Source: Bacteroidota bacterium
GTDB lineage: Bacteria > Bacteroidota > Bacteroidia > Chitinophagales > Chitinophagaceae
Assembly (NCBI GenBank): GCA_013286315.1
Contig: JABDFX010000001.1
Location: 21,777 to 85,776, forward strand
Reading direction: 5' to 3'
DNA length: 64,000 bases
Shown: piece after piece, positions 55,533-61,179 of the stretch
Layout of the letters: each line of letters begins with the position of its first letter
Numbering within the stretch: position 1 is the stretch's first letter
The notes under the pieces: generated by a model
The model's input: the letters and a program-made list of their open reading frames with translations, nothing else
Databases searched by the model: none
Told to the model about the DNA's origin: nothing
Position numbers and translations under genes: made by a program

Positions 55533-57950
55533 TTACCCAAACCATTTGCCCCACCAACGAATCACTTGTTTATGTGGAAGAGCTCTCTTTTTCTTCGCCG
55601 GCTTTTCAAAATATCCTGATTCAATACCATATCCATAGCCACCATAATATCCATAGCCACCATAATATCCACTATAATATCCACCCTCAAGTTTCACGTC
55701 ATTTAAAATAAGTGATAAGCCGGGCAGCTTTTTCTCCTGATAAAGGTCTTCTACCAGTCGCAAAATCTTTCTATATGTATGATTCATTCTAACTACGAAT
55801 AGTGTACAATCGGCATACTTTCCTAAGGAGATAGAATCACTAACCAGACCGACCGGCGCTGTATCCATGACGATCACATCAAAATTTTCCCGGGCTTCCC
55901 TCATCAGATCATCAAGCTTAGGGTCAAGTAAAAGTTCCGCAGGGTTGGGCGGAATGGGACCACAGGGAATGACGTATAAAGAATCGAAGCCCGGCACCTG
56001 CATAACGATATCCTTAAATTGTGCGCGTCCGATTATATAGTTCGTTATACCCATTTTTCTCTTCATATTCAGACTTTCCATTATTTTGGGTTTGCGGATA
56101 TCAAATTCAATAATTACTGTTTTCTTGCCGCTTAATGCGAGAACCGAAGCCATATTAATGCTGATAAAAGATTTTCCTTCCCCACTAAACGAGGAAGTTA
56201 CAAGGATCGAAGGATTATCCTTCTTCACGGTCATATACTTTAGATTACTTCTCAGGATACGAAATTGTTCAGCCACAAAACGTCTGCTGTTTCTTAAAAC
56301 GACCAACGATGAATCATCATCCGAATGCCCGATTTCTCCTAAAATAGGCGTTTTCGTCCGCCTTTCTACCTCAATCCGGTTATTCACTTTGTCCCTAAGC
56401 AATTCCCTAAACGCAATCAAACCAACAGGAATTAATAGTCCAAACATTAAGTAAGAACTATAAATCTTATTCTTGTTCGGGCTGATTGCGTTTGAAGATT
56501 CCAGTGCGGGCTCAACGACCGTTGAATTTGAAATGGTAGATGCGGAAGAAATCGAAATTTCCAACTTTTTCTGGAGCAGGAAAGAATATAGTTCCTCCAA
56601 AATCTTTTGCCTTCGGGCAACATTCCCTAACTGGAGGGTTTTGCCAGGCATTGCGCGTAACTTACCTTCCATATCCCCCTTTTGCTGCAACATTTTATTT
56701 CGGGCAATTGCATATCCGTTCTTTACATTATTCAGTGCCTCCGACATGTCCCTTCGGATTTTTTCAAGGGTTGCATCGTAGGCCTGAATCATCGGATTAT
56801 TCTGTGTAGTTGTTTTTAAATTATTGTCCCTCTCTAATTGCAACCTATTATATTCGCTGATCCGGTTTGCTAAGGCAGGTTCTTCAATTCCCATATTAAT
56901 TGGAACGAGTTCGTGCGATTTTTTTGGATCATTAATATATTCCTGGAGAAGATTTGCTACGGTTATTTTTACATCCATTAAATCAATATTGGTTTGACCC
57001 TGTTCTGCATTTCCCAGATAAATTTTTGACTGGCCCTCTACATCAAACATTTCATGTGAAACCTTAAAGTTCTGAACCCTCCCTTCCAGAATATTGAGTT
57101 GAGATTCCAGCGTATCCAAATTTGTATTTATAAATTTTAAACTATTTATAGATATCCTGTTCTTATCTTCAATATTCAAAGAATCGTATACCCCCATCAA
57201 TGCGTTTAAGAAATTTTTTCCCAATTCCGGGTTCTCAGTTTGAAAAGAAAGCAATAGAATAGTGGATTGATCATTACCCTGTGTGATATTCACTGAACCC
57301 AGGTACTCGTTGGCAACGGTAGCAGCGGATGCGTGCGATACATAAAAAACCGGACTTGCAAAGATTTTCAGATCTATTCTCGGATCACGAACCAATGTTA
57401 CTCTATTGTCCGCCACAACGATTATTTCACCGAAAACATGAATTGTCGTTTCTTTATTAATCCTGTATTGCTGGTCATTTAATATCGTAATATTTAACCC
57501 AAAATTCTGAGAACTCTTACTTGGGCTGATAATTTCCAAGCTGAAAGGAGATTCAGGATATAACAGACTTGTTCTCACCTTCCCAATATTATAGTAGCGT
57601 GTGGTGAGTTGAATATTATTGATTACCCTTTGAAGCACAGGACGGGATATTAATATTTGAATCTCATTACTTAGATTTTCGGACCCTGGAGACATTAACA
57701 ATGCATCAAAACGATCGCCCTTACTGCCTGCACTACCCTGATTATTAATCATCATGGAAGATTGCACCTTATAGATGGGCGTGGAATAACGGATCTTTAG
57801 CCACGCGAGTACTAATGCTATTGCGCAGCTAATAATTAACCATGGTATATACTTCAGGTTTTTTAATATGAAATCCCTCGGTCCCAGTTTCCAGGAAAAT
57901 TCATTCGAGATTTGTTCCGGATGATTTAGACCATTTGAAGCCTCAGACAT
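55533..57950 (-). CDS. wzc: Polysaccharide co-polymerase / tyrosine autokinase (Wzc-like) with Gly-Tyr-rich tail
   Basis: 805 aa; Wzz-type N-terminus, ILVTSSFSGEGKSFISINMASVLALSGKKTVIIEFDIRKPK, DVIVMDTAPVGLVSDS, tail GGYYSGYYGGYGYYGGYGYG. Confidence 0.93.
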   Translation of the reverse strand: MSEASNGLNHPEQISNEFSWKLGPRDFILKNLKYIPWLIISCAIALVLAWLKIRYSTPIYKVQSSMMINNQGSAGSKGDRFDALLMSPGSENLSNEIQILISRPVLQRVINNIQLTTRYYNIGKVRTSLLYPESPFSLEIISPSKSSQNFGLNITILNDQQYRINKETTIHVFGEIIVVADNRVTLVRDPRIDLKIFASPVFYVSHASAATVANEYLGSVNITQGNDQSTILLLSFQTENPELGKNFLNALMGVYDSLNIEDKNRISINSLKFINTNLDTLESQLNILEGRVQNFKVSHEMFDVEGQSKIYLGNAEQGQTNIDLMDVKITVANLLQEYINDPKKSHELVPINMGIEEPALANRISEYNRLQLERDNNLKTTTQNNPMIQAYDATLEKIRRDMSEALNNVKNGYAIARNKMLQQKGDMEGKLRAMPGKTLQLGNVARRQKILEELYSFLLQKKLEISISSASTISNSTVVEPALESSNAISPNKNKIYSSYLMFGLLIPVGLIAFRELLRDKVNNRIEVERRTKTPILGEIGHSDDDSSLVVLRNSRRFVAEQFRILRSNLKYMTVKKDNPSILVTSSFSGEGKSFISINMASVLALSGKKTVIIEFDIRKPKIMESLNMKRKMGITNYIIGRAQFKDIVMQVPGFDSLYVIPCGPIPPNPAELLLDPKLDDLMREARENFDVIVMDTAPVGLVSDSISLGKYADCTLFVVRMNHTYRKILRLVEDLYQEKKLPGLSLILNDVKLEGGYYSGYYGGYGYYGGYGYGIESGYFEKPAKKKRALPHKQVIRWWGKWFG
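55626..55687. repeat. Short in-frame tandem repeat encoding the Gly-Tyr-rich tail of the Wzc-like kinase
   Basis: Direct reading: ccatatccatagccaccataatatccatagccaccataatatccactataatatccacc, approx 18-bp period. Confidence 0.8.
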
Positions 57951-57969: not shown

Positions 57970-58797
57970 TTATGGATTATGAAATATGCTATAAATAACT
58001 GCAAACGTGGAAACAAATGCCAGCGCAAGGGATATATTTCGAGCTGTTACCACATCATTTGCTACAGATTTTTTCTTATTTGGTTCTACAATGATGATAT
58101 CGTTTTGTTGAATATAAAAATATGGCGAGGCCATAATTTCTGGTTTCGTTAGATTCATCCAGGCGAATTCCCGTTTATTATTGTTTTCCCTTATTATAAA
58201 TACGCTATCCCTGTTCGCATAATTTGTGAGCTCTCCCGACAACGCAATAGCCTCCAGTATATTAATTCTTTCACCCGGAATAGAAACGATGCCGGGATGA
58301 GCTACTTCACCCATCATGGTAAACTTGAAATTCAAAAATCTGATGTTATAATAAGGATGTTGAAGGTATGGACCCAGCCTTGCATCCAAAGTATCCTTTA
58401 AAGCGGCCTTGGTAAGCCCATTTACATAAATTTTCCCCAATCCCTGAAAAACAATATTTCCATCTCCGTCCACCTGATAACCCGGCGCTGAGGGTGCCGT
58501 TCCGCCAATCCCCTGAGTTACTCCGCTTGAAGCTATAACTGAACTGTTTGCAGTTGTTATCAAAGACTGATTATATATTTTGGTCGCGTCCGGATTATCG
58601 CTATAAACGATAATACTTAATATATCCCCCTTACGAATGATGGGTTCTACCGGGTTAATAACACTCAGTTTCGCCGTATCAAAAGGTCCGCGTACCAGGA
58701 TCAATCCTTTTGTGCTTCCACAGGAGCTCATATTATGCATAATTAAATATCCAATAACTGCGAACAGAACATTTCTCAACAAGGAAAATCGGTGCAT
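57970..58797 (-). CDS. wza: Polysaccharide export lipoprotein (Wza-like, SLBB-containing)
   Basis: 275 aa; lipobox-like MSSCGS; IRKGDILSIIVYS, YQVDGDGNIVFQGLGKIYVNGLTKAALKDTL, VSIPGERINILEAIALSGELTNYANRDSVFIIRE. Confidence 0.93.
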   Translation of the reverse strand: MHRFSLLRNVLFAVIGYLIMHNMSSCGSTKGLILVRGPFDTAKLSVINPVEPIIRKGDILSIIVYSDNPDATKIYNQSLITTANSSVIASSGVTQGIGGTAPSAPGYQVDGDGNIVFQGLGKIYVNGLTKAALKDTLDARLGPYLQHPYYNIRFLNFKFTMMGEVAHPGIVSIPGERINILEAIALSGELTNYANRDSVFIIRENNNKREFAWMNLTKPEIMASPYFYIQQNDIIIVEPNKKKSVANDVVTARNISLALAFVSTFAVIYSIFHNP

Positions 58798-58799
58798 GT

Positions 58800-59306
58800 T
58801 TAGTTAGTAAGGGTTGACAAATTCTTTTTATCGATCGACGCAATCAGGCTATAGCCGATACTCTCAATTATTACTTTTACCCGGTTGCCTTCGATCTTGA
58901 TTATTTTGGCTTCGTGATCCATAAATAGTCCCTGGCGGATGGTTACCCTTTCATCTTCTTTTAATTCGATCGATTCAGCCGTCACATCGTCGTATTCATT
59001 CAAAAACTTCCGGATAATCTCAATCTCCCTCGCCGGTATGACGGCCGGTTTACCCTGCCAGTACACAAAATTCATCACGCCGGGGGTTAAGCGCACTTTA
59101 GTCTGTTCTTCCTCACTTACCCGGGCAAATACATAACTCTTGAATAGGGGCTCTTCCACCGTTTTCATCCGGTCGCTCCATTTCTTCCTTACTTTGTTCA
59201 GAGGGCAGTAGGATTCTATTTTCTTTTCAGTGAGTAAGGCATGCACTTTTTTCTCCCAGCGGGGCTTTGTGTAAATCGCATACCAATGGGATGTTAACGC
59301 TGACAA
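58800..59306 (-). CDS. UpxY/RfaH-like NusG-family transcription antiterminator
   Basis: 168 aa; HWYAIYTKPRWEKKVHALLTEKKIESYCPL, PLFKSYVFARVSEEEQTKVRLTPGVMNFVYW, C-terminal KOW-like domain. Confidence 0.93.
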   Translation of the reverse strand: MSALTSHWYAIYTKPRWEKKVHALLTEKKIESYCPLNKVRKKWSDRMKTVEEPLFKSYVFARVSEEEQTKVRLTPGVMNFVYWQGKPAVIPAREIEIIRKFLNEYDDVTAESIELKEDERVTIRQGLFMDHEAKIIKIEGNRVKVIIESIGYSLIASIDKKNLSTLTN

Positions 59307-59458
59307 GGTAAATTCATTTTAAATAATACACTAAAATCGTCGATTCCATGAAATGCTTCGCCACCTCAGTCCCATACTCTCATGCAACCGGTTAATTACC
59401 AATACAATAACGAAAACCGCCCAACTACTACAAATCCCGTTCCTACCCCATATCAGCA

Positions 59459-59499
59459 AAGGGTGCAGGCAGTCATTTTAGATGACCCCCTACACCCTT
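59459..59499 (-). promoter_or_regulatory. Strong hairpin in the 5' leader of the antiterminator gene
   Basis: Minus strand: AAGGGTGTAGGGGGTCAT-CTAAA-ATGACTGCCTGCACCCTT, 18-bp stem with one mismatch and two G-U pairs; no U-tract follows. Confidence 0.65.
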
Positions 59500-59604
59500 C
59501 CAAAAATTTATACCCAGACTAAAAATTAAATTCGCCAGAATTTGAATCACAGGATTGTTTGATTAACTGCGGCGAAACCCTCTCCATAGCGATGCTTTTT
59601 GCGC

Positions 59605-59611
59605 CGCTACC
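59605..59611 (-). promoter_or_regulatory. ops-like core motif (GGTAGCG) in the leader of the antiterminator gene
   Basis: Minus strand AATTAGGGTAGCGGCGC resembles the ops/JUMPstart core GGTAGCG; only a 7-nt match. Confidence 0.3.
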
Positions 59612-59643
59612 CTAATTCTTTTTCAACGGATTATGCTGCTTTG

Positions 59644-59651
59644 CAAATATA
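59644..59651 (-). promoter_or_regulatory. Candidate Bacteroidota -7 promoter element (TATATTTG) for the EPS operon
   Basis: Reverse complement of caaatata matches TAnnTTTG, ~340 nt upstream of the antiterminator start; no clear -33 TTG. Confidence 0.45.
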
Positions 59652-59772
59652 GCTGTTTTTCGTACTGGGAAATGAGGAAATAGAGTTCAGTTTTATCATA
59701 TATTTCAGGTTATTTTCCTTTGAGAAACGCCTCCGAAATCTCTGAAAGACAGTTCTAATACCCATTAAAATC

Positions 59773-61179
59773 ATGCGGTTTACCAGTTTCATTTTTGTCC
59801 TCTTGCTCCTGCTCACTTTCACACTCTATTATTTGCCTTTTTTGAGGAAATGGCAGATCCAGATCCTGATAATTTCCAGCCTGTTGTTTTACGCCTATCA
59901 CCAGCCCGAACTGGTTTTTTTGCTACTTTTCTCTATTTCAGTAAATGTTGTTTCCAGTTATCTGATTGTTTATGGAAATCCCCGGTTTAAAAAGAGGTAC
60001 GCGATAGCCGGCGTCGTAATCAATCTGTTCATTCTGATTTTTTTCAAATACGGACCGCTGGTCTCGCGGAGTTTCTTCTCTTCGGCCAACCCGGTTGGAG
60101 AATTTTTGCTGACCATGCCACTTCCGATCGGCATTTCCTTTTTCACTTTTCAGGGCATCAGCCTGGTCATAGATGTATTCAACGAAAAATATGTGAGCAA
60201 TAAACTGCTTGTCCCCCTGTCTTTTTGGAAACATACAAAGCAAATTTTGTTCTTTAAGGGGTTTTTCCCCCAGTTGATATCCGGACCCATCATTAAAGCA
60301 CACGATTTCATCCCCCAGATCGGGTTCAAAAAATTACAGAACATTCAATGGGAAACAGTTTTTAAAAAGTTGACGGTGGGTTATTTTCTCAAAATGGTCG
60401 TGGCGGATAACCTAAAGGACTTTACTTTTTATATTTCCTTTCCTTACTTCCAGGGTTATTCTACGTTGAACCTGATCGTGATGCTTTTTGGCTACTCCTT
60501 TCAGATTTTCGCTGATTTCGCCGGCTACTCGCTGATTGCCATCGGCCTCGCCAAACTTTTCGGCTATGATTTTATGGAAAATTTTAATTTTCCTTATATA
60601 TCCACTTCTTTTAAGCAATTCTGGAAACGCTGGCATATCTCTCTCTCCACATTTCTGATGGAATATTTATACTTTCCGCTGGGTGGTAACCGGAAAGGAA
60701 AGCTGCGCACCTACCTCAATCTGATGATTGTAATGTTTCTCGGCGGCCTATGGCACGGCGCCGCCTGGAGCTATGCTGTCTGGGGAAGTTTTCACGGACT
60801 GGCACTTGCGTTGGAAAGATTTTTCAGCCCTGCAAAAGAGCGACATCATGATCTAATTACGAAGTTTGTTAAGGGTATATTCGTCTTTGCATTCGTTACT
60901 TTGGCCTGGCTGCTGTTTAAACTGCCCGACTTTAACCAGGTAATAGAATATTTCAAAAGCATACGACACAATGGATCGATTCCAATCGATTTTCAGCTAA
61001 TTACTTATATTCTTATGTATTCTTTACCAGTATTGATTTATCATTTGATCTATCTAATTCAGGCGAAACCGATGTTTACGCGTTTTCAAAAATTCAGTTA
61101 CCTGGCATATGCATTGATGTTGTTTCTGATGCTGACGAACAGCGGTTCGCCAGGAGCCTTTATCTATTTTCAATTTTAA
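59773..61179 (+). CDS. MBOAT-family O-acyltransferase (AlgI-like)
   Basis: 468 aa polytopic; QFWKRWHISLSTFLMEYLYFPLGGNRKGKLRTYLNLMIVMFLGGLWHGAAWSYAVWGSFHG. Confidence 0.94.
   Translation: MRFTSFIFVLLLLLTFTLYYLPFLRKWQIQILIISSLLFYAYHQPELVFLLLFSISVNVVSSYLIVYGNPRFKKRYAIAGVVINLFILIFFKYGPLVSRSFFSSANPVGEFLLTMPLPIGISFFTFQGISLVIDVFNEKYVSNKLLVPLSFWKHTKQILFFKGFFPQLISGPIIKAHDFIPQIGFKKLQNIQWETVFKKLTVGYFLKMVVADNLKDFTFYISFPYFQGYSTLNLIVMLFGYSFQIFADFAGYSLIAIGLAKLFGYDFMENFNFPYISTSFKQFWKRWHISLSTFLMEYLYFPLGGNRKGKLRTYLNLMIVMFLGGLWHGAAWSYAVWGSFHGLALALERFFSPAKERHHDLITKFVKGIFVFAFVTLAWLLFKLPDFNQVIEYFKSIRHNGSIPIDFQLITYILMYSLPVLIYHLIYLIQAKPMFTRFQKFSYLAYALMLFLMLTNSGSPGAFIYFQF

Follow-up and report, generated by a model that had tools for sequence, protein, structure and literature searches.

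In the 2024 work of Saba et al., UpxY of Bacteroides is said to recognize paused RNA polymerase through the non-template strand and the upstream duplex DNA, with nascent RNA hairpins aiding. For NusG paralogs that are encoded in their own operons, such as UpxY, recruitment was termed unknown in 2020 (PMC7593976), and a passage of PMC12691694 cites a contact between UpxY and the upstream duplex. For RfaH, the recruiting signal is a hairpin formed by non-template DNA at a consensus pause; in ops this hairpin has the pair C3:G8 (PMC5995543). Here we analyzed a stretch of 64,000 nucleotides from a genome of the Chitinophagaceae (phylum Bacteroidota; hereafter the window) in which an upxY gene heads a long surface-polysaccharide operon. 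Upstream of this gene we find a conserved element, TGGGACTGAGGTGGCGAAGCATTT (59351-59374, minus strand), which we propose as a pause and UpxY recruitment site with the RNA 3' end at 59352 and +1 at 59351. We consider it likely that the leader carries a Bacteroidota analog of ops, a site that would resemble ops in its working and differ from it in design. This view draws on results at the level of sequence, namely the element itself, where it lies and how well it is conserved, the pause consensus within it, and the covariation of two hairpins across relatives. The element sequence was not found in the relevant literature that we searched, Saba et al. 2024 being outside that search, and priority relative to that study of Bacteroides UpxY is uncertain.

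Of 60 related genomes, 39 encode relatives of the UpxY, and the upstream regions of the 30 nearest were compared. Nearly all of these regions have ATGTGACTGAGGWGGCGAAGCTATG in common, mostly 250-310 nucleotides 3' of a TATATTTGC promoter box. The window copy of this conserved stretch, TGGGACTGAGGTGGCGAAGC (59355-59374), lies about 286 nucleotides into the transcript and 48 nucleotides 5' of the upxY start codon. A search of 33 genomes of the genus gave 27 copies of the pattern GACTGAGNNGGCGAAGC and 0 of its reversed control, and 25 of the 27 copies are on the same strand as a UpxY gene of the window type and within about 300 nucleotides upstream of it. The remaining two copies (G020 C50 and G027 C58) are orphans that have some 3' flank in common. 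The window's own genome holds a single perfect copy; no other strict copy was found there, only a match with two mismatches, as the control also yields. A search of 58700-59900 against Rfam gave no match at E values up to 1.

Two positions of the element lie outside the searched pattern and are hence informative. Counting from the first G of GCGAAGC, index 9 holds a T in 100% of the genus copies (n = 28) and in 96% of the phylum copies (n = 78), and the base that follows it (+1) is G or A in the element family. Taken together, the GG and the conserved T followed by G give the consensus pause G-11 G-10 ... T-1 G+1; the element family has the GG-N8-TG arrangement, and the window copy keeps the GG and T-1. 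The core of the element is GGCGAAGC, and the ops core GGCGGTAG is not present in it. This core contains GCGAAGC (59355-59361, minus strand), a candidate DNA mini-hairpin (GC-GAA-GC) that is known to be extraordinarily stable, with a melting temperature of 78 C, a GNA loop and at least two G-C pairs (PMC4686876). In the UpxY-anchored set described below, the middle base of the loop is A in 28 cases and G in 11, and C and T do not occur there. Bases -11 and -3, which would form a third pair of the mini-hairpin, are G:C in 12, A:T in 11 and G:T in 11 of 39 cases, A is never combined with C (permutation p ~0.002), and one paralog group has a fully paired GGGC-GGA-GCCC core. No covariation was detected for the -12/-2 pair (25 of 78, p 0.96).

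Our model is that RNA polymerase starts near 59638, synthesizes a leader of about 286 nucleotides, and would pause at the GG-N8-T consensus of the element with the RNA 3' end at 59352. The exposed non-template strand would then show GGCGAAGC, able to fold as a GNA-loop DNA mini-hairpin, and the nascent RNA just behind the polymerase would form a short hairpin with a conserved 3' arm, GACTGAG. UpxY from the same operon may recognize this paused complex via the mini-hairpin and the adjacent upstream duplex, remain on the polymerase, and suppress termination across about 52 genes.

The short RNA hairpin of this model (hairpin 2, CGGUU.CAUG gaga UAUG.GACUG; 59367-59390, minus strand; -8.8 kcal/mol) abuts the element, and its phylum-wide counterpart covaries. 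Compared with dinucleotide-shuffled sequence, the 20-nucleotide 5' flank of the element pairs better with the conserved arm, both in the phylum (Kolmogorov-Smirnov p 1e-15, n = 72) and in the genus (p 5e-17, n = 28). The changed element arms TGACTCAG, TTACTGAG and GGGACTCAG are matched by the changed 5' arms CTGAGTCA, CTCAGTAA and CTGAGCCC, and own arms outdo swapped arms (p 1.4e-7, a value that ignores the kinship of the sequences). The original prediction had drawn attention to a larger hairpin, of 18 bp and with no U-tract. A stem of about 17-18 bp and -30 kcal/mol is indeed found within 59459-59499 (hairpin 1, minus strand), and it scores 54.1 bits with a covariance model whose building set includes the window copy. 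The missing U-tract is a property of the window, where CCCUUUGC directly follows the stem, but not of most relatives, which have CCCUUUUC. Hairpin 1 is present in 27 of the 28 genus leaders searched, 44-148 nucleotides 5' of the element and at -19 to -32 kcal/mol, and compensatory changes are seen in the genus (5 of 11 outer pairs) and in near relatives. We rejected it as a phylum-wide signal, given that it is convincing in 3 of 77 further loci (L074, L077 and L107); to judge from these sequences, the widespread hairpin is the smaller one that abuts the element and not the 18-bp hairpin. In L074 and L077 a leader with hairpin 1 and the element precedes a Wza gene with no upxY nearby, an arrangement suggestive of action in trans. 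Hairpin 1 might serve as a leaky terminator or as an accessory signal.

Across Bacteroidota the element has the consensus TGKGACTGAGGNGGCGAAGCYRTR and is found immediately 5' or 3' of upxY or at the head of other operons, most of them for polysaccharides. When 84,980 species were scanned with TGKGACTGAGGNGGCGAAGC, at least 117 exact 20-nucleotide stretches were returned, compared with about 4 expected by chance from simple base counting. Among the matches listed, record titles are nearly all from Bacteroidota (Chitinophaga, Flavihumibacter, Mucilaginibacter, Algoriphagus, Cyclobacterium, Carboxylicivirga, Prolixibacteraceae and others), and the two titles from Acidobacteria/Terriglobia appear to be chance matches or mis-binned sequences. 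We examined 80 loci among the matches listed and find upxY directly after the element in 29, just upstream of it in 8, and elsewhere in the locus in 4. Downstream of the other copies, polysaccharide genes prevail (UDP-glucose dehydrogenases, Wza, Wzz, ABC export, epimerases, sulfate activation). A one-mismatch search of 297 phylum genomes gave 38 matches versus roughly 20 in a control; the strict sequence is thus too narrow at phylum depth, and a UpxY-anchored search was used instead. In this independent sample 44 of 111 loci have GCGNAGCYnT on the sense strand, compared with 5 that have it antisense. The element stands before upxY in one group of families and after it in another. On the UpxY tree it occurs in both halves, its variants track clades, and only 4 changes explain the before or after position at the element-bearing loci.

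It is conceivable, with the balance leaning slightly toward doubt, that much of Bacteroidota uses one old recruitment code for capsule antiterminators, in which a natural GNA-loop DNA mini-hairpin, d(GCGNAGC), would form in the non-template strand of a paused polymerase next to a covarying RNA hairpin, variants of the code (TTGGGCGGAGCCC versus GGTGGCGAAGCT in one genus) would tell UpxY paralogs apart, and orphan copies would put operons under UpxY in trans. Several of the sampled loci have features of their own. In L190-L192 and L195 the element, with a TATATTTGC box 5' of it, lies after upxY and before a UDP-glucose dehydrogenase-like gene, so that in this group upxY and its target may be transcribed separately. 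Orphan copies L063, L093 and L332 are beside tyrosine-recombinase genes, possibly a mobile or recombinase-linked context, and L332 and L340 have a 3' flank in common. In L048, L064, L090 and L101 the element is followed by an open reading frame (ORF) of about 180 amino acids (MIESLITSKTRIKLLLKFFLN...) that has no Pfam match. A link to phages was also considered; a 16-base pattern gave 20 matches in viral contigs, which is near a rough chance estimate, and we claim none.

A number of points weigh against the proposal of an ops analog. Pausing, UpxY binding, a DNA hairpin in the bubble and antitermination are steps that we infer from sequence comparison. The window copy, GGCGAAGCATTT, departs from the consensus at two positions, +1 (T) and -3 (A). 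DNA nearest-neighbor folding of the core yields no stable structure, and we used published melting data instead; the covariation statistics, for their part, take the sequences as unrelated and ignore kinship. Some orphan copies precede integrase or toxin-antitoxin genes, the element was not found in two UpxY clades (18 sampled rows each), and a k-mer search of the UpxY groups lacking it gave no convincing substitute motif. Lastly, G.T is common at -11/-3, and such a pair (G.U in RNA) suits RNA as well as DNA. The same pair favors an account in which the element acts as RNA and, once the polymerase has passed, UpxY or the ribosome reads hairpin 2 together with an RNA loop, GGC-GAA-GCY, as in LoaP/dfn. 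Both hairpins are possible in RNA, covariation does not separate DNA from RNA, and the NusG paralog LoaP does bind an RNA hairpin (PMC12691694). However, T-1 and G/A+1 are kept in exact pause register, which is unexpected for a signal that is RNA only, the GNA rule matches the known DNA mini-hairpin, and during the pause the bases of the element would sit in the RNA-DNA hybrid. We find an RNA-level signal unlikely.

We hold it quite unlikely that the main control point of the leader is hairpin 1, acting as a leaky intrinsic terminator (attenuator), with the element secondary to it. The stem is strong, has compensatory changes and is followed by CCCUUUUC in most relatives, but it is lineage-specific, it lies upstream of the proposed recruitment site, and its U run is short and partly paired, with just three U's in the window copy. 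About half of the genus leaders have AGGWGG 7 nucleotides 5' of the ATG that starts upxY, as it might be if the element were a ribosome-binding and start region (GGAGG...ATG) and no transcription signal. This is very improbable given that the distance between the element and the start codon is in the tens to hundreds of bases in the window, in L007, L008 and L031, and in most phylum loci, that the element is intergenic and 3' of upxY in other loci, and that GACTGAG and GCGAAGC are conserved in any case. The original prediction had placed recruitment elsewhere, at GGGTAGCGGCG (59602-59612, minus strand; about +26 to +36 relative to a start near 59638), about 30 nucleotides into the transcript and with help from the 18-bp hairpin. 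This motif is present in the leader and is similar to the ops core, but it is conserved neither in the closest relatives (L004, L005, L006 and L032) nor elsewhere, whereas alignment of the leaders of related UpxY genes brings out 59351-59374 instead. We therefore reject GGGTAGCGGCG as an ops, it is probably not functional as such, and the arrangement first predicted is scarcely credible. The leader of a UpxY-headed operon is real, and its recruitment element had been wrongly identified: comparative genomics supports well the idea of an antitermination unit whose recruitment element can be recognized in the DNA, only that this element is TGKGACTGAGGNGGCGAAGCYRTR.

Apart from the motif, the anatomy of the locus agrees with what had been predicted. 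The -7 promoter box TATATTTG (59644-59651, minus strand) is of the Bacteroidota TAnnTTTG type, and a box of this type recurs 5' of the element in the aligned genus leaders at the spacing given above. Transcription would start at about 59638, and the leader of about 330 nucleotides is confirmed. Between the promoter and hairpin 1 lies a further box, TCCTGTGA (59547-59554, minus strand), which is kept as TCCTGTGAAGAA in the genus leaders, and a divergent gene for an MBOAT/DltB-like acyltransferase (59773-61179, plus strand) adjoins the promoter. Where about 50 genes on the same strand had been predicted, we count 52 minus-strand ORFs of at least 100 amino acids in 7054-59306. TAnnTTTG is absent from every gap of more than 60 bp in this chain, which together with the shared strand fits a single very long operon. 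Following upxY are genes that by family match encode a Wza-type polysaccharide export protein (Poly_export, SLBB; 57970-58797) and a Wzc-type chain-length determinant/tyrosine autokinase (55533-57950), with ABC-export-type genes coming next. The other 49 ORFs (7054-55505, all minus strand) are presumed to be in the same operon from the ORF chain and the families of the first genes; families among those examined include ABC export (Wzm/Wzt-type), methyltransferase, acetyltransferase and similar.

The first gene (58800-59306, minus strand) starts with TTG and encodes a NusG-paralog antiterminator of 168 amino acids. That it is UpxY-like, as predicted, is borne out by the UpxY family profile NF033644 (143.7 bits, cut-off 100); the protein is below the cut-offs of the RfaH profile TIGR01955 (79 versus 144.5 bits) and the LoaP profile NF033641 (65.4 versus 125 bits). 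Its predicted structure combines an NGN domain with a KOW domain of beta-strands (mean predicted local distance difference test score 82), in a model built from a small alignment of 12 sequences that limits the reading of the KOW fold. In the profile alignment, K10 of RfaH is a lysine in UpxY too, and the positions of H20, R23, Q24 and R73 have other residues, which is what one would expect of a protein that reads another DNA shape. The window's own genome also encodes two UpxY paralogs in tandem on contig C2 (L002 and L003, 49.5-52.5 kb); L002 carries a variant element, TGTGACCGAATTGGGCGGAGCC, and no recognizable element was seen at L003. An upxZ gene adjoining upxY is usual in Bacteroides, although not universal. 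Compared with the UpxY/UpxZ capsule regulation described in that genus (Chatzidaki-Livanis 2009; Saba et al. 2024), the window has no upxZ beside upxY, whose neighbor is the Wza-type export gene instead.

A 24-nucleotide element with a predicted pause position, a mini-hairpin core for which melting data are published, and paralog variants opens the question of recruitment to point mutation. The element can also be used to search Bacteroidota for surface-polysaccharide operons and for targets of UpxY. If our proposal is true, this would be a second natural case in which a transcription factor reads folded non-template DNA, in a sequence unlike ops. RfaH and UpxY are both NusG paralogs, and RfaH activates long surface-polysaccharide operons (PMC5995543). 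The E. coli ops GGCGGTAGCGTG and the element GGCGAAGCYRTG share the pause frame GGCG...TG over 12 bases, and in both a small hairpin of non-template DNA starts from C-9 with its loop at G-8, as we propose for the element. The inner bases differ, being GAAGCYR in the element and GTAGCG in ops. The proposed pair is -9:-5 around a GNA triloop (-8 to -6) in the element, whereas the C3:G8 pair of ops, counted in the same way, is -9:-4 around a loop of four bases, and the element, unlike ops, has an additional conserved GACTGAG arm with its RNA hairpin. On the protein side, UpxY differs from RfaH at the four changed residues, and its KOW domain is modeled as a beta barrel, whereas that of autoinhibited RfaH is an alpha-hairpin. 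The LoaP/dfn system is similar in combining a NusG paralog with a leader element that has a hairpin and a pause (PMC12691694); it differs in that LoaP binds the RNA hairpin, and the window UpxY does not reach the LoaP cut-off. Lastly, the ultra-stable mini-hairpin d(GCGNAGC) is identical to the element core and tolerates the same changes in the middle of its loop. It is known from synthetic oligonucleotides and aptamers (PMC4686876), and we propose it here as a natural signal in the transcription bubble.
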